Shown here piece after piece: positions 856 to 35,753 of a DNA stretch of 35,753 bases (the stretch's first letter is position 1; every line of letters starts with the position of its first letter). The notes under the pieces are model-generated. The model saw nothing but the letters and a program-made list of their open reading frames with translations. It ran no database searches and was not told the DNA's origin. A program made the translations under genes and the position numbers. Source of the stretch: Caldora sp. SIO3E6 (GTDB lineage Bacteria > Cyanobacteriota > Cyanobacteriia > Cyanobacteriales > Coleofasciculaceae); assembly GCA_010672185.1 (NCBI GenBank), contig JAAHHL010000001.1, forward strand, positions 1 through 35,753, given 5' to 3'.

Positions 856-3800
856 CTAAGCTAGGTCGGTATAAGGAGTATATCTAGACTCATAAGCTGC
901 CTCTTGACCGTAGGAAATTTCTACATGGTGTCCATCAGGATCTCTTAGGTAGGCTGCGTACCCAGTTGGAGGACCATAATCCTTAGGTCCGTCAAGTAAA
1001 CAACCCTCTTTGCGAGCCAGTTTACAGAGTTGATCCACTTGTTCAGAACTAACACAAGCAATACCAATATGACTCGGGGGCAAGATCGGCTTAGCCTCTT
1101 CTTCCTCCAGTAAAGCTAGCGCAAAGGGTCTAATGTTGTCAGACATCCAAACTGTACCTGGTTCTACGCGCAAGCGCACCACTGACATCTGACCGTACTT
1201 GGCGTAGAAAGCAATACTGGTATTAAGGTTCGTAACAGCTATAGCTAAATGAGTGAAGGCTGTTGTTTTAGTCATGGCAGATCCTGTAGTTTGATTGAGA
1301 CTGTCCAAAGTATCTTGAGTAAATACGGGTAATCCAAAGTCAGGTCGGTAACCGTGAATAGCATCAGGAGCAAGCTGCTTCATCAGGAAGACTATCGCCC
1401 CAGTTACCACTTGACCAGGAACTAAAATGGGGCAACCCGGTGGGGTAGGAATAATGAATGTCGATGAAACTAGTTCTCGTCCAGATGCCATTATCTCATC
1501 TATTTCATTGTCTAGCTTGAGATATTCTATTTTTTCTTCGTCTAAACCCAGGAAGTAGGCGCTCCGCATATCACCTTGCCCAGTTACCTGGTGAGAACGG
1601 AAGCCGGAGTAAAACTCGCTGAAATGAGGCAAAGAAGGCAAATTTCGTGTTAGTTGTTGCAGCTTGTTTTCAAATAATTTGATTTCCACTTGATTGTCTT
1701 GGCGCAATTCCTGTTCCAATCCCTCAGCAATTTGATTCAGGCAATCAAGCAAATATGTTACAGAACCCCAGGTTGTCCCGATATTAGTCATGAATAAAAC
1801 TGTATTGAGGGAAACCTTGTTAACCTGAATATTAAACTGTTCCATCAGTACAGAATTTTGGAAAGTATAGCCATCGATTCCTGTTTGGCCAATGTACAAA
1901 GTCAGCCGCGTGGGATCGAGTACAAATTCATCATCCTCCCAAGCTTGCTCGATACGCTGGAACTCTGCTTCTGGAGTTTCCTGAGTTTGGTAACTTTTCA
2001 GACCTGATGGTCGATAGATATCGGGAATCAACTCTTCAGGAGTAAGTATCTTGAAGTATTTTCCTAGCAATGGATGAGTGTTAACCTTCTCCCGCACTAC
2101 CATTGCTGTATCAATCTGAGACTGAAGCAATTTAAAGCCTTCCAAATCAACTTGTCGCCGCGCTAAATCCAGAGAGGCCAAAATTTGGTAATTCGGGGAT
2201 GTGCTGGTATGGGTCATGTAAGCCTCTAGAAAATCAATTTCCGACCTACGGTTGAACTCCTCGTCCCAGATGTGAATCATTGATGATTGACGCATACCAG
2301 ACAGAGATTTATGGGTTGATTGGGTTGAGTACACCCGAATCTTGACTTGATCTGGATCAGGTAAGAGGCGCTGGTTCAGCCAGGTGTCATCATCCTCTGG
2401 ATCAAGCCGATCAAATTGTTCTTTAAAGTCTGCATACTCCTGTCGGTATTGGGGACTGTTATAGCGAGTATGAAGGTCAGTGGCAGCTTGCATTGCTGTA
2501 CGTTCTCGATAGATTGAGGTGCAACGAGCAAAGGCAAACCAGGCTTCGTCCCAGAGGAAAATCAGATTTGGCTTGATTGCCAGTATTTCTTCCATGACTT
2601 GCTTAACGTTGTAAACAATCCCATCAAAGGTACAGTTTGTAAGTAACACCATCTTAACCTGCTCCAATTGCCCCTCTCGCTTGAACTTGAGCAATTGTTG
2701 CTTAATTTCCTTTAAAGGGACAGCACCATAGATACTATATTCTTTGAGGGAATAGGCATTGAGGTAAAGGGGTTGAGCACCTACTAAAACGATGCCATAG
2801 TGGTGAGATTTGTGGCAATTCTGGTCAACTAAGACAATATCACCTGGGGTTACAACTGTCTGCAAAACAATTTTATTGGCAGTTGAAGTACCGTTAGTCA
2901 CAAAAAAAGTTTGCCTGGAACCAAAGCTTTTTGCTGCTAAACTCTGAGCCTGTTTAAGGGTACCAGTAGGGTGCAATAATGAGTCTAATCCTCCACTGGT
3001 TGCTGAAGTTTCTGCTAAAAAGAGATTTTGACCGTAGAACTCTCCCATGTCCTGAATCCAATCAGACTTAAAAATGGAATTTCCCCGGGAAATGGGCATA
3101 GCATGAAATACCCCTGTGGGTTCTTGGCTGTAATTTCTTAAGGCATTGAAGAAAGGGGTTTCGTAACGTTTTGCGATGCCTTGAATAATACTTAAGTGTA
3201 CTTCAAGATAGTCTTCCTGGTTGTAGAAAACGCGGCGGAAGTTCTGATTCGCCTCAGCATCCATATCAACCACGGATACATCACTCAACAAGTATAAATC
3301 CAACTCTGGACGTAACTTATTTAAAATCGCACCTAAAGTAAAACCTCTCGGTTGGTAATATTCTCCAGCTAATTCAGCTTGTTCTAACCCACTGATGTAT
3401 TCTTCGAGCACTGACAAACGGTTGTTTGAGTGCAGGGGAAAGTCGTAGCCAATAACACAACATTGAATGTTGTGATTCAACATCAAAGCTGTTAGGGAAT
3501 CTTCGAGGTTAGAAATAAAGATAATTTGATAAATAAACTGGTCTGTACTTGAGGCTATCTCTGCTAATTTGTGGCGTATTTCTTTTTCTTTTTCTATTGT
3601 TATATCGTCTTCAACAAATAAGACTGTGAAATAGAGTTGATTAGAGTTTTTATTGTACTTATCGACCGATATAATTTGCTCTCCATCTTTCTGTTCCCTT
3701 GCAAAAATCTGATCCATGTATGCTTGGTCATACAGTTCAGCACCGCTAGACATCAAACCTATAATTTGAGCCACTTCCCAGGAAAGTCGGGAATATTCCT

Positions 3801-4062
3801 GGTGCTCAAAGTGCTGCTGCAATCGTCGAAATGCATTTATCCCTGGAAATTTCCAGTAGAGTTCGAGGGGTTCGAGAATTTTGAACCCAGCTGCAATTTT
3901 TTCCTTTAAGGTGGAGATATCCTTGCCACAGGCGTGAAGAGATTGCAAGCGGTCCGTTGACAATTTCAGTTGGCTCCAGATATCAACACGCATTGGTAAG
4001 GTATTTTTATAGGTGTTGATATACAAGCAATCAAGAATACGAGTACATGAGTTTTGAGACAC
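856..4062 (-). CDS. Orn/Lys/Arg-type PLP decarboxylase (fold type I) with C-terminal glyoxalase/VOC domain
   Basis: 1068 aa; PLP-lysine region STQSTHKSLSGMRQSSMIHI, upstream FVTNGTSTANKIV and LLTNCTFDGIVYN; C-terminal THLAIAVTNLNTSIAFYAKYGQ...YLRDPDGHHVEISYGQ is VOC-like. Confidence 0.88.
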   Translation of the reverse strand: MSQNSCTRILDCLYINTYKNTLPMRVDIWSQLKLSTDRLQSLHACGKDISTLKEKIAAGFKILEPLELYWKFPGINAFRRLQQHFEHQEYSRLSWEVAQIIGLMSSGAELYDQAYMDQIFAREQKDGEQIISVDKYNKNSNQLYFTVLFVEDDITIEKEKEIRHKLAEIASSTDQFIYQIIFISNLEDSLTALMLNHNIQCCVIGYDFPLHSNNRLSVLEEYISGLEQAELAGEYYQPRGFTLGAILNKLRPELDLYLLSDVSVVDMDAEANQNFRRVFYNQEDYLEVHLSIIQGIAKRYETPFFNALRNYSQEPTGVFHAMPISRGNSIFKSDWIQDMGEFYGQNLFLAETSATSGGLDSLLHPTGTLKQAQSLAAKSFGSRQTFFVTNGTSTANKIVLQTVVTPGDIVLVDQNCHKSHHYGIVLVGAQPLYLNAYSLKEYSIYGAVPLKEIKQQLLKFKREGQLEQVKMVLLTNCTFDGIVYNVKQVMEEILAIKPNLIFLWDEAWFAFARCTSIYRERTAMQAATDLHTRYNSPQYRQEYADFKEQFDRLDPEDDDTWLNQRLLPDPDQVKIRVYSTQSTHKSLSGMRQSSMIHIWDEEFNRRSEIDFLEAYMTHTSTSPNYQILASLDLARRQVDLEGFKLLQSQIDTAMVVREKVNTHPLLGKYFKILTPEELIPDIYRPSGLKSYQTQETPEAEFQRIEQAWEDDEFVLDPTRLTLYIGQTGIDGYTFQNSVLMEQFNIQVNKVSLNTVLFMTNIGTTWGSVTYLLDCLNQIAEGLEQELRQDNQVEIKLFENKLQQLTRNLPSLPHFSEFYSGFRSHQVTGQGDMRSAYFLGLDEEKIEYLKLDNEIDEIMASGRELVSSTFIIPTPPGCPILVPGQVVTGAIVFLMKQLAPDAIHGYRPDFGLPVFTQDTLDSLNQTTGSAMTKTTAFTHLAIAVTNLNTSIAFYAKYGQMSVVRLRVEPGTVWMSDNIRPFALALLEEEEAKPILPPSHIGIACVSSEQVDQLCKLARKEGCLLDGPKDYGPPTGYAAYLRDPDGHHVEISYGQEAAYESRYTPYTDLA

Positions 4063-4164: not shown

Positions 4165-4336
4165 CGCGATCGCATGACTCAATGTATGTTATCCGAACCT
4201 AGTGCAGGGTAGCGGAAATAACTGAGAAGCTAAAATTTCCTTGTCCTCCTTGTCTCCCTTGTCTCCCTTGTCTCCCTTGTCTCTTTTGAGGTGCTCAAGA
4301 ACTTCTGCCTAGCTGTACTAGGATAAGCGATCGCTA
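4165..4336. repeat. R1 repeat copy (GCGATCGCATGACTCAATGTATGTTATCC.AACCTA / GGATAAGCGATCGC), split by an inserted CTAG element
   Basis: Left half 4165-4201 and right half 4319-4334 match contiguous copies at 4631-4682 and 5464-5516. Confidence 0.75.
4199..4321. mobile_element. CTAG-flanked short interspersed element, copy C
   Basis: CTAG|TGCAGGGTAGCGGAAATAAC...CTAGCTGTA|CTAG; interrupts R1; internal 9-bp tandem repeat (tgtctccct)n. Confidence 0.65.
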
Positions 4337-4337
4337 A

Positions 4338-4592
4338 TCATTCATCAATTAATTCTTTAATTGACTTTTTACCTGATTTAGCTTGTTCAATGGATTTTAA
4401 TAAATGTTCGGCATTAGTAGGATTGGATAATAAATATAGTGTTTCCTGCCAAGAGTTAAATTCATCTAAAGACATTAAAACAGCTTGTTTACCTTGATCA
4501 TTACATACTATAGTTGGTTCTACGTCAAGAATGACCTGATCAATTAGTTCATCTAATTGTTGTTTGGCTTGATTACTCGTAATTGCTTTCAT
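4338..4592 (-). CDS. Phd/YefM-family antitoxin, apparently orphan
   Basis: 84 aa MKAITSNQAKQQLDELIDQVILDVEPTIVCNDQGKQAVLMSLDEFNSWQET, typical Phd/YefM N-terminus; no adjacent toxin ORF. Confidence 0.8.
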   Translation of the reverse strand: MKAITSNQAKQQLDELIDQVILDVEPTIVCNDQGKQAVLMSLDEFNSWQETLYLLSNPTNAEHLLKSIEQAKSGKKSIKELIDE

Positions 4593-4630: not shown

Positions 4631-4756
4631 CGCGATCGCATGGGTCAATGTATGTTATCTGCAACCTAGGATAAGCGATCGCACTCACCACCTCAATTCA
4701 ATCGTAGGTTGGGTTGAGGGGAATAGTTGGGTAACATTAATCAACCCAACCTACAA
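4631..4756. repeat. R1 repeat followed by R2 inverted repeat (GTAGGTTGGGTTGA...TCAACCCAACCTAC)
   Basis: R1 matches 5464-5516; R2 arms at about 4702-4716 and 4741-4754. Confidence 0.75.
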
Positions 4757-4785: not shown

Positions 4786-5118
4786 TCAGCCTAGTTCTTC
4801 ACCTAGGGTTTGCTGTGATGCGTGCCGAATGTGTAGAATGCGAACGGTCGCTCCTTCTTGCTCTTCCAATATAGTAAAAAGAATTCGATATGAATTACGT
4901 CCCCGACCGTAGAGTAATTGTCGTATTTCTTGACTGAAATACTTATTCTCTCTTGCTAGAGGACAACGTTTGGGAAACTGCGATAGAGATTCGATTGCTT
5001 GTAGCAATCCAGCATACCATTGGCTTGCCTGGGTGGGAGATGTGACTTGGGACAAACGTAGGAAGGCGCTGTCGGCTTCCTCCTCTGCCACACTGGAAAT
5101 TTCAATAGGGTATTTCAT
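4786..5118 (-). CDS. ParE/RelE-family toxin
   Basis: 110 aa MKYPIEISSVAEEEADSAFLRLSQ...FPKRCPLAREN...RQLLYGRGRNSYRILFTILEEQEGATVRILHIRHASQQ; ParE-like ending; overlaps upstream antitoxin. Confidence 0.83.
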   Translation of the reverse strand: MKYPIEISSVAEEEADSAFLRLSQVTSPTQASQWYAGLLQAIESLSQFPKRCPLARENKYFSQEIRQLLYGRGRNSYRILFTILEEQEGATVRILHIRHASQQTLGEELG

Positions 5119-5463: not shown

Positions 5464-5697
5464 TCGCGATCGCATGACTCAATATATGTTATCCGCAACT
5501 TAGGATAAGCGATCGCACTACATCACCACCTCAATTCAATCGTAGGTTGGGTTGACGCTCCGAAACCCAACAACATCAGACCGCCACACCAATTAAATTG
5601 TACTTTCTATTTTCTTAGAGAGAAAACCCGGCTATTGAGGAGAAGACGTTGTGTTGAGGGGAATTATGTTGGGTAACATTAATCAACCCAACCTACT
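5464..5697. repeat. Composite repeat: R1, R2 arm and R3 (ttctattttcttagagagaaaacccggctattgag.agaagacgttgtgttgaggggaattatgttggg)
   Basis: R1 matches 4631-4682; R3 (5605-5672) nearly identical to 7154-7222. Confidence 0.8.
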
Positions 5698-5717: not shown

Positions 5718-6005
5718 TTATGATTTCATCTGCTTCTGAGCAAGATAATGTTCGTCCAGGGCGCGTCTTAGCATCATTTTAATCACAGCAGATCTGCTAA
5801 TGTTGAGTTCTTTTGCCATTGTATCTAGTTCAGTGAGCATAGGGCTAGGAATTTCCATGTTTGTGGTTTCTAGATCCTGTCTTCTTCGTGAAGTCATCTG
5901 ACGGCGTGTTCCGACTCTTGTTGTTGTGGAGTCAAAATAGCGGTCTATAACTTCTTCTCCTGCTTCGATTTTTTGTTCAATTTCTTCAATAGAAATATTG
6001 TTCAT
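5718..6005 (-). CDS. brnA: BrnA-like antitoxin
   Basis: 95 aa, C-terminal ribbon-helix-helix-like MEIPSPMLTELDTMAKELNISRSAVIKMMLRRALDEH; directly follows and overlaps a BrnT-like ORF. Confidence 0.7.
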   Translation of the reverse strand: MNNISIEEIEQKIEAGEEVIDRYFDSTTTRVGTRRQMTSRRRQDLETTNMEIPSPMLTELDTMAKELNISRSAVIKMMLRRALDEHYLAQKQMKS

Positions 6006-6261
6006 AAATTTCTCTCTCCCTTTTTGTGCTTTTCCAGTAAGTTATTAACCAGATATATTCCCCTTCATCATCATAACGCAGTTCATAAATGACCGATAAA
6101 AGAGAATTTTTCAGAAAACCAATAGCAATAAATTGTTCAGGATAATCTTGTTTTATTCGTTCTACATAGTCGCCAGCCAAGATAGTAGCGACTTCATCGA
6201 ACGAGTATCCTCTATTTCGCTTCAGAAGTTGACTTTTGTGATTATCCCAATCAAATCGCAT
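5986..6261 (-). CDS. brnT: BrnT-family toxin
   Basis: 91 aa MRFDWDNHKSQLLKRNRGYSFDEVATILAGDYVERIKQDYPEQFIAIGFLKNSLLSVIYELRYDDEGEYIWLITYWKSTKREREIYEQYFY; BrnT pattern (FDWD-K...F-EA...I-A-KATKREREIYEQ). Confidence 0.83.
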   Translation of the reverse strand: MRFDWDNHKSQLLKRNRGYSFDEVATILAGDYVERIKQDYPEQFIAIGFLKNSLLSVIYELRYDDEGEYIWLITYWKSTKREREIYEQYFY

Positions 6262-14684: not shown

Positions 14685-15863
14685 ATGAATAATAACTCAA
14701 CAGATGCAATTAAAGGCGATATCTTAGTGGTTGACCATCACCTCGAAAATGTCAACCTTCTCTTCACTATGCTGAGTCAGCATGGCTATGAAGTTCGTCA
14801 AGTGAATAATGGCAGACAGGCATTACAGGCAGCGCAATACGACCCCCCTGACCTGATTTTGCTCGATATTCTGATGCCAGAAATGGATGGCTATGAAATC
14901 TGCCGACAACTAAAAGCTTTCCCAGAAACCCAGAAGATTCCAGTAATTTTCTTGAGTGCTTTGGATGATGTATGGGATAAGGTGAAAGCTTTTGAAATTG
15001 GTGGAGTGGATTACATTACTAAACCCTTTGACCTGCCAGAGGTATTAGCGCGGGTAGAGCATCAACTAACTATTGTACGCCAGCAAAGGCAACTCACTGA
15101 GCAAAATATTCGCCTGCAACAGGAGGTTCAGGAGCGTCAAATAACTCAACAGCAATTGCAACAGTTGAATCAAGAACTGTTACGTTCCAACACTGATTTG
15201 GAGCAATTCAATTCGATTGTTTCTCATGACTTGCGACAACCATTGACTAGTATTAATGCTAATGCTCAGTTGCTAGCAATAAAATCTCACCGTTTTCTCG
15301 ACGAGGACTCTAAACAATGTGTCAATCGTATTTTGGAGGGAACCAATCTTATGGATCAACTCTTGCGGGATTTGTTTGCTTATGCCCGACTAGGAGGAAC
15401 CGATACAACCAAGTTTAAAGCGACTGATTGCAATTTGGTGCTTAATCAAGCCCTAGACAATTTATACCAAGCAATTGAAAAAAGTCAAGCTATTGTTAAC
15501 CATGACCCTTTACCAACAATTATAGCCGATCGCGTACAATTAGTAATCCTCTTCCAAAATCTCATTAGCAATGCCATTAAATATCGCCGGGAAGAAACCC
15601 CTCAGGTCAATATTTCAGTCAGGCAAACAGATACTGAATCCTTCTTTGAAATTCAAGATAATGGCATTGGCATCGAACCAGAAAACTTGGAGACAATATT
15701 TAAGCTTTTCCAACGTTTGCACTCACTGCAAGATTATCCTGGTAGTGGTATCGGTCTCGCTATCTGTAAGAAGATTGTTGAATGCCACGGAGGGCGTATC
15801 TGGGTTGATTCTTTACCTAATGTTGGCAGTAAGTTTTATTTTACTATTCCCCAGCTTAAGTAA
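14685..15863 (+). CDS. Response regulator receiver - histidine kinase hybrid
   Basis: From ATG 14685 (MNNNSTDAIKGDILVVDHHLENV...LILLDILMPEMDGYEICRQL...YITKPFDLPEVLARV); HisKA (SHDLRQPL) and HATPase (NLISNAIKY, DNGIGI, GSGIGLAI). ORF track extends to 14439. Confidence 0.9.
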   Translation: MNNNSTDAIKGDILVVDHHLENVNLLFTMLSQHGYEVRQVNNGRQALQAAQYDPPDLILLDILMPEMDGYEICRQLKAFPETQKIPVIFLSALDDVWDKVKAFEIGGVDYITKPFDLPEVLARVEHQLTIVRQQRQLTEQNIRLQQEVQERQITQQQLQQLNQELLRSNTDLEQFNSIVSHDLRQPLTSINANAQLLAIKSHRFLDEDSKQCVNRILEGTNLMDQLLRDLFAYARLGGTDTTKFKATDCNLVLNQALDNLYQAIEKSQAIVNHDPLPTIIADRVQLVILFQNLISNAIKYRREETPQVNISVRQTDTESFFEIQDNGIGIEPENLETIFKLFQRLHSLQDYPGSGIGLAICKKIVECHGGRIWVDSLPNVGSKFYFTIPQLK

Positions 15864-15986
15864 TAAGTAATAAGTAATAAGTAATAAGTAATAAGTAATA
15901 AGTAATAAGTAATAAGTAATAAGTAATAAGTAATAAGTAATAAGTAATAAGTAATAAGTAATAAGTAATAAGTAATAAGTAATAAG
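15860..15986. repeat. Heptanucleotide tandem repeat (taataag)n, ~17 copies
   Basis: Uninterrupted period-7 tract; stop codon of the upstream kinase lies in it. Confidence 0.97.
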
Positions 15987-20555: not shown

Positions 20556-20662
20556 CTAGTACAGCACGGCGGAAATAACCCGTTAGTTAAAGAAGGTGAA
20601 AAAGCTTTCTTTCCTTAGACCTTCTGCCTCCTGCCTCCTGCCTCCTGCCTTCAAAGCACTAC
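20556..20662. mobile_element. CTAG-flanked short interspersed element, copy A
   Basis: CTAG|TACAGCACGGCGGAAATAACCCGTTAGTTAAAGAAGGTGAAAAAGCTTTCTTTCCTTAGACC...(cctcctg)n...CTTCAAAGCA|CTAC. Confidence 0.7.
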
Positions 20663-31362: not shown

Positions 31363-31501
31363 CTAGTGCTTTGAAGGCTCCGAGACACCAACCCACCCCT
31401 AAACCCTCCGTTGGAGGGAAAAGGCTCCAAGGAAAGAAAGCTTGGAAGGGAAGCTTTTCACCTTGTTTAACTGACGGGTTATCTTTGCCGCGCTGCACTA
31501 G
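31363..31501. mobile_element. CTAG-flanked short interspersed element, copy B (reverse orientation)
   Basis: Reverse complement CTAG|TGCAGCGCGGCAAAGATAACCCGTCAGTTAAACAAGGTGAAAAGCTT...CTTTCTTTCCTTGGAGCC...GCCTTCAAAGCA|CTAG; both ends match copy A. Confidence 0.75.
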
Positions 31502-34084: not shown

Positions 34085-35753
34085 ATGAGAAACGCTATAT
34101 CTCTTGATGACTCAATTAAAAAATTACGTGCCTTAACTCAAATTAAGGTGCAAAACAACTGGCGATATTGTCTCCAGGACTTGCCGGTGGCTGTTGCTAC
34201 AGAGTTTGAACAATGGCAAAATTGGTCAATTTCAGAATTAAACGAAAAAGAATATATTGTTTGGTCAGCAGGGGAACAGGTAATTTGGCTAGGTCAACAA
34301 TTTGTGATTACCCAGGATTTACAGGGTTATCCTTTAGTAGGATTAAGTTTACGACTTCTGTTGACTTGGTGGGCTCAATCAGCTCAGATTTTTGTAAATG
34401 GTCAACTGGTACAGGAAGGAGATTTATTCGATTCTTCTGCTAGGATACTTCTTAGTCCCGCTGTAGTGACTGGGGAAAAAATTACAGTAGCTTTGCGGCT
34501 AGTGAGTCCTGGTCATGATATTGGTGGCTTGATGGGTTCTCACTGCTGGTATGAGTCGAATGATTCAATTGATCCAGGATTTGTAGCGGATGAATTAGCA
34601 GTTTTACAGAAGTATGTAGCAGCTTTTGCACCAGAAAAATTAGGTATCTTGGCTACAGCAGTTGCTGAGATTGATTGGGAGTTAGAGTCTCAGCAAGTAG
34701 CATTTACCAGTTCCCTTGCTACCTGCCGCCAATATCTCCAATCCCTGATCAGGGATCATGATTTACCCACACCAAAACAACGCTGTATTCATCTACTGGG
34801 ACATGCCCACTTGGATTTAGCTTGGTTATGGCCAGTGAGTGAAACTTGGGAAGTAGCAGTGCGTACTTTTGAGTCTGTATTAAACCTACAGCAAGATTTT
34901 CCTCATTTAATATTTTGCCATTCTACACCAGCTATTTATGCTTGGATAGAACAGCATCGTCCTGATTTATTTGCCAAGATCCAACAAAAAATTGCAGCTG
35001 GTAGTTGGGAAGTGGTAGGAGGAATGTGGGTAGAACCAGAATTGAACCTGATTGCTGGTGAGTCAATTGTGCGCCAAATCCTCTATGCTCAACGCTATAT
35101 CCAGGAAAAATTTGGTAAGTTGACCAAAGTAGCTTGGGTTCCTGATAGTTTTGGCTTCCCTTGGCAGTTACCCCAGATTTTGCAACAGGGAGGCATCGAA
35201 TACTTCGTAACTCAAAAGTTACATTGGAATGATACTAATAAGTTTCCCTACAATGCTTTCTGGTGGCAATCCCCTGATGGCAGCAAAATCTTCAGTCTGA
35301 TGTCTCCCCCCAACCTTGCTGGTGTGATGGATACTAATCCCATCACGATGACTTCCTATGCTGTTGATTGGGAAACCCAGACTAATCTACAAGACATATT
35401 CTGGCTTCCCGGTGTCGGAGATCATGGTGGTGGCCCGACTCGCGATATGTTAGAAGTCGCTCAGCGTTGGCAGCAATCCCCATTTTTCCCCCACTTGGAA
35501 TTTACTACTGCCGAGGGTTATTTGGAGAGTATTAGGGAGATGGGGAGATGGGGAGCTGAGGGAGCTGAGGGAGCTGAGGGAGCTGAGGGAGCTGAGGAAG
35601 CTGAGGGAGATAAGGAGATATTTCCCATTCCCAATTCCCAATTCCCAATTCCCAATTCCCAATTCCCAATTCCCAATTCCCAATTCCCAATTCCCAATTC
35701 CCAATTCCCAATTCCCAATTCCCAATTCCCAATTCCCAATTCCCAATTCCCAA
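34085..35753 (+). CDS. Alpha-mannosidase, GH38 family (runs off right edge)
   Basis: ATG 34085; [19 protein letters not shown]...[32 protein letters not shown]...[41 protein letters not shown]...[14 protein letters not shown]. Absent from ORF track because no stop lies in the window. Confidence 0.92.
35549..35612. repeat. 9-bp tandem repeat (gagctgagg)n encoding (Ala-Glu-Gly)n in the mannosidase frame
   Basis: ggagctgagggagctgagggagctgagggagctgagggagctgaggaagctgaggg. Confidence 0.92.
35622..35753. repeat. 7-bp tandem repeat (ttcccaa)n, ~18 copies to window edge
   Basis: Period-7 tract continuing to the last base; read in the mannosidase frame as repeating FPIPNSQ. Confidence 0.97.

Follow-up and report, generated by a model that had tools for sequence, protein, structure and literature searches.

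The short insert in one copy of the repeat R1 is very probably a non-autonomous mini-transposon (MITE) of the IS630 family that entered a CTAG in the R1 loop. The insert lies in the window, by which is meant the whole stretch of 35,753 nucleotides that was analysed, part of a 9-Mb draft genome (G000) that is 93.6% complete and whose genus-mates include Symploca sp. SIO1C2, SIO2C1 and SIO2E6. Elements with the same ends are dispersed through this genome with CTAG at both borders, and several of their sites are empty in sister genomes. Similar ends bound complete IS630 elements of other cyanobacteria, and an internal tandem array of variable length occupies a constant position within the elements.

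Structure of the insert and of its target

Read directly from the sequence, the insert comprised 115 bp (4203-4317) and was bordered by CTAG at 4199-4202 and at 4318-4321, in the arrangement ...TTATCCGAAC CTAG / TGCAGGGTAGCGG...GCCTAGCTGTA / CTAG GATAAGCGATCGC. Under a model in which only TA is duplicated, the element proper would span 4202-4318 (117 bp), with TA at 4200-4201 on the left and at 4319-4320 on the right. The earlier note had described short inverted repeats, TGCAG and CTGTA, at the ends of the insert. Inverted ends were indeed present, but they reach further than that, over ~23 bp through the CTAG, and are imperfect, with 14 of 23 positions matching between the two ends of the window copy. 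A 9-bp tandem array, absent from the earlier note, occupied the middle of the element and accounted for 45 of its 115 bp. An Rfam search of the window returned one tRNA and nothing else.

The target repeat R1 is bounded by GCGATCGC (HIP1) octamers, and an intact copy folded as a hairpin (z = -3.3). Three matches to R1 were found within the window, compared to 0 expected. Two of these were contiguous and the third was opened by the insert, as had been noted before, except that the match given as 4661-4680 should read 4661-4682. Across the genus another seven copies were contiguous: G003 held four, G002 two and the remainder of this genome one, and in all seven the point of interruption read CCTAGG. 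The filled copy was one base short, with CCGAACC in the place of CCGCAACC. The R1 copies were interspersed with minus-strand toxin-antitoxin genes between 4166 and 6261 (Table 1). The minus strand also encoded, at 856-4062, a 1068-aa Orn/Lys/Arg decarboxylase-like protein fused to a C-terminal glyoxalase domain.

Table 1. Positions of the element, its parts, further family members, R1 copies and neighbouring genes in the window.
Feature	Position	Strand	Basis or remark
R1, interrupted target	4166..4334	+	Opened at CTAG in the loop of a TTATCC...GGATAA hairpin
Whole inserted unit with both CTAGs, very probably an IS630-type MITE	4199..4321	+	Sequence, family alignment, CTAG borders, uninterrupted sites
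Left terminal repeat CTAGTGCAGGGTAGCGGAAATAA	4199..4221	+	18/23 identical to IS630 end of Nostoc flagelliforme L276
9-bp tandem array, CCTTGTCTC x5	4239..4283	+	TRF
Right terminal repeat, read on the minus strand as CTAGTACAGCTAGGCAGAAGTTC	4299..4321	-	17/23 against IS630 end of Nostoc flagelliforme L276
Phd/YefM antitoxin	4338-4592	-	Beside R1 copies
Uninterrupted R1, paralogous empty site	4632..4682	+	Sequence match
ParE-like toxin with small ORF upstream	4786-5118	-	Beside R1 copies
Uninterrupted R1, TTAG replacing CTAG	5466..5516	+	Sequence match
CopG-like and BrnT-like genes	5718-6261	-	Beside R1 copies
Second family member, CTAGTACAGCACGGCGGAAATAA ... CCTCCTG array ... AAGCACTAC	20556..20662	+	Right border CTAC
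Third family member, reverse orientation	31363..31501	-	Ends CTAGTGCAGCGCGGC... and GCACTAG

Dispersed copies and their borders

The genome-wide search that the earlier note had proposed was productive. BLAST with the insert against this genome returned 71 pieces, among which ~22 places held related element copies with unrelated flanks, while most of the remaining pieces were stand-alone 9-bp arrays. A left-end pattern of the wider family matched 53-56 times in this genome, 42 times in G001, 11 times in G002 and twice in G003, and the reversed pattern, used as a control, gave 0 matches. The elements fell into subfamilies with common ends and differing interiors: A with a 9-bp unit (CTTGTCTCC), B with the 7-bp unit TTAATTC, C with the 7-bp units CCTCCTG/CCTTCTG, and a few further copies with the unit GGGGACGCG. 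The right end of B, read inward, was CTAGTRCCGCTGCGCGGAATTAA, from which it follows that the ends are ~23 bp long. Element sizes ranged from 86 to about 250 bp, and no transposase or coding capacity was found in any of the copies examined. No two copies were seen to be fully identical, and the family therefore does not demonstrate recent activity.

Tabulation of the flanks showed CTAG at both borders, with C93 T97 A97 G93% on the left (122 left ends) and C96 T100 A91 G87% on the right (23 B-type right ends), and near-random bases just outside either border. Borders and ends thus recurred from copy to copy, in place of the missing CTAG flanks and variable ends by which the earlier note would have recognised chance similarity. 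Two copies (L007 and L003) abutted another family member with one CTAG common to both, which suggests that one element inserted at the border of another.

IS630 elements with matching ends

Of 390 cyanobacterial genomes covered by a class-wide search, 61 contained the ~23-bp ends; the control gave two matches. The ends were abundant in many genomes of one Nostocaceae-like family. The consensus of the Nostoc-type MITEs matched the Brasilonema plasmid CP030123.1 next to an annotated IS630 transposase. The IS630 element on this plasmid carried the left end of the Nostoc-type MITEs (28/28 nt), measured 1330 bp, was bounded by 37-nt inverted repeats (92%) and contained a DDE ORF (DDE_3, 6.8e-30) and a helix-turn-helix ORF; both ORFs matched parts of the NCBIfam IS630 model, each of them alone scoring below the cut-off. 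Nostoc flagelliforme, Calothrix PCC 7716 and a Nostocaceae-like genome (G304) contained comparable elements of 1330-1332 bp whose two termini both matched, and all four elements, that of Brasilonema included, were flanked by CTAG. The autonomous element with the same ends that the earlier note had suggested looking for was found in these IS630-family elements of ~1.33 kb. A plasmid search with the Symploca consensus returned simple-repeat matches only.

The window copy agreed with the Nostoc and Brasilonema IS ends at 17-18 of 23 positions on the left and 15-17 of 23 on the right. Random 23-mers from the window reached these scores 0-2 times in 20,000, and the 18/23 of the left end 0 times in 20,000. 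Past the first ~28 bases the interior of the MITEs had nothing in common with the IS.

At E ≤ 0.001, no transposase of the Nostoc/Brasilonema-type IS630 was detected in the draft of this genome, 93.6% complete. Within the genus a transposase, 77% identical, was found only in the sister Symploca G003, where it had two ORFs in different frames and the right terminal repeat of the element was lost. A decayed IS in another genome (G114) shared the right end CTAGTGCAGCGCGGC with Symploca. With the transposase missing from the element's own draft genome and the right repeat lost in G003, the argument for mobilisation in this lineage is the similarity of the ends, 17-18/23. A cognate transposase in the same genome is usual for an active MITE and is not defining. 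Its absence here lowers the confidence in current mobility and leaves family membership untouched. The IS630 genes of this genome itself (three matches to PF13358 and one to PF01710) were considered as partners and rejected, since the ends of L060 and L183 differ; at both loci, IS630-type HTH/DDE genes lay between inverted repeats of the type TTATAGCGCTACGCGCTGG...

Length of the target duplication

The earlier note had described an apparent 4-bp CTAG duplication. CTAG at both borders was confirmed, but the length was not: CTAG is palindromic, and a 4-bp duplication is therefore inseparable at this site from a 2-bp duplication of TA. Nearly all copies of the family had TA at both borders, nearly always inside CTAG, and position-wise conservation, alike for the inner and the outer CTAG bases, does not tell TA from CTAG. 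ISY100, a cyanobacterial IS630 element, moves by cut-and-paste into TA, and IS630-family elements duplicate TA on insertion (PMC2170065); for TA within CTAG as the target, that paper cites Tenzen and Ohtsubo (1991). Since an IS630 partner was found, the duplicated bases were most probably the TA within a CTAG target, not CTAG itself.

It is unlikely that the insert is instead an IS5-family MITE with all four bases of CTAG duplicated. Some IS5-type elements do duplicate CTAG or YTAA, such as MITEPsy1 of Pseudomonas syringae (PMC3189936), and the about equal conservation of all four CTAG positions at both borders would suit them. However, the complete elements that were found with common ends encode IS630 transposases. 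In addition, right borders that had departed from the outer G kept the inner C (L002, L116, L129 and the window member at 20556-20662), as TA duplication predicts, in a search that favoured such cases.

Alternatively, one flanking CTAG could represent the target and the other a terminal cleavage site. The element would then have been moved by a Y1 (IS200/IS605-type) transposase, like REPINs and TIR-flanked relatives of RAYTs, and inserted 3' of CTAG with no duplication, and REP repeat families are present in cyanobacteria (PMC3733652). This was judged very improbable, as the window copy folded no better than shuffled sequences (z = -0.7), conserved end hairpins were not found, and the ends are conventional inverted repeats common to DDE-type IS elements.

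Empty sites in sister genomes

For 18 copies from this genome, the two flanks were joined and searched across the genus. Insert-free sites were found in sister genomes for seven copies (L005, L038, L045, L054, L057, L058 and L126), each with about the length of a single unduplicated target and with small indels near L126, L057 and L058. The empty sites read CTAG (L038, L058), CTAA (L045, L054), CTTA (L057) and TTGG (L005), and the readings that depart from CTAG count against the proposed explanation; the L058 site occurs several times per genome and some of its matches may be paralogous. Other insertions were common to this genome and SIO1C2, and one such pair (L120/L135) differed by one array unit. 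The sister-genome sites are better evidence of mobility than the paralogous R1 copies, and together with the dispersed copies they substantiate the proposal of the earlier note that the insert is small and mobile, with both filled and empty sites. That a tandem array merely grew within R1 by slippage and acquired CTAG borders by accident, as the array's share of the insert and the element-free arrays of the same unit elsewhere might suggest, is refuted: the parts outside the array, like both ends, recur in scattered copies whose flanks are unrelated, and insert-free sites match other copies.

The internal tandem array

An array of 7- or 9-bp units (in one case 8 bp) was present in 47 of the 59 elements of the Symploca set and in 8 of 14 Nostoc-type elements, and in 0 of the shuffled sequences. 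In both groups the median distance between the left end and the start of the array was ~63 bp, and the array stopped ~16-17 bp short of the right end; the unit differed between the groups. The 15 copies of subfamily A always held whole multiples of 9 bp, from 3 to 8 units. These observations raise the possibility, which we put forward tentatively and with considerable doubt, that one IS630-type MITE lineage across cyanobacteria keeps a homologous repeat-forming site ~16 bp inside its right end, at which differing 7- and 9-bp units (TTTTGAC, TTAATTC, CCTCCTG, CTTGTCTCC) arise or replace each other, perhaps in connection with transposition.

The MITEs were also considered as the vehicle of the heptamer arrays of this genome. 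This was rejected, as the enrichment was weak: in three 400-kb samples, 13 of 205, 11 of 160 and 2 of 75 heptamer arrays lay within 120 bp of a MITE end, compared to 2.6, 3.9 and 2.0% of random positions, respectively. No element remnant was found within 400 bp of eight stand-alone 9-bp arrays. Two long, near-perfect heptamer arrays of the window, TAAGTAA x18.6 at 15857-15986 and TTCCCAA x19 at 35622-35753, were situated away from MITE ends. The MITE family alone does not account for the heptamer arrays in these genomes, which are mostly located elsewhere.

Proposed mechanism

The following course of events would account for the element. A DDE transposase of the IS630 type, provided in trans, would excise it, and the excised element would be pasted into the TA of a CTAG, with duplication of the TA. 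The array inside the right end would lengthen or shorten by ordinary slippage during replication and might, in the longer term, give way to arrays of other units. An intact IS630 partner in this Symploca or its sisters would be expected to carry CTAGTGCAGCGSG... ends. The IS630 elements provide a family of short repeats in a marine cyanobacterium with an autonomous partner family, and the movement of the short repeats becomes directly testable. An array that keeps its position and changes its unit across distant cyanobacteria is a natural system for studying the origin of bacterial heptamer repeats.

Comparison with known systems

The element resembles members of the IS630/Tc1-mariner group, such as IS630 of Shigella sonnei and ISY100 of Synechocystis, in its ends, its CTAG target and the DDE_3 transposase of its partner. 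It differs from them in having no transposase of its own, in sharing only ~23-28 bp of the ends and in carrying a tandem array. In this last respect it is similar to BrickBuilt of Porphyromonas gingivalis, a MITE with a minisatellite between a leader and a tail; BrickBuilt, known from P. gingivalis and P. gulae, is IS5-like and has 23-bp units (PMC4596501), whereas the present family has IS630-type ends and 7- or 9-bp units, which differ between lineages and lie at a fixed site near the right end.

Nezha and the 147 MITEs of Anabaena sp. 90 are likewise short, gene-less, cyanobacterial and bounded by inverted repeats, and the Anabaena sp. 90 elements were called type II, no IS with matching ends having been found (PMC3542288). 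Compared by description, some of the Nezha and Anabaena sp. 90 elements may belong to the same family as the window element. Cyanobacterial STRR heptamers and small dispersed repeats were reportedly described by Mazel in 1990 and by Elhai in 2008; they include 7-bp arrays of filamentous species, which are reported to lie in or beside mini-transposons. In contrast to the STRR heptamers, the array described here is a regular internal part of a TIR-bounded element, and most heptamer arrays sit elsewhere. An IS630-type MITE as such is of a known kind; it is the fixed array site with its changing unit that merits follow-up.
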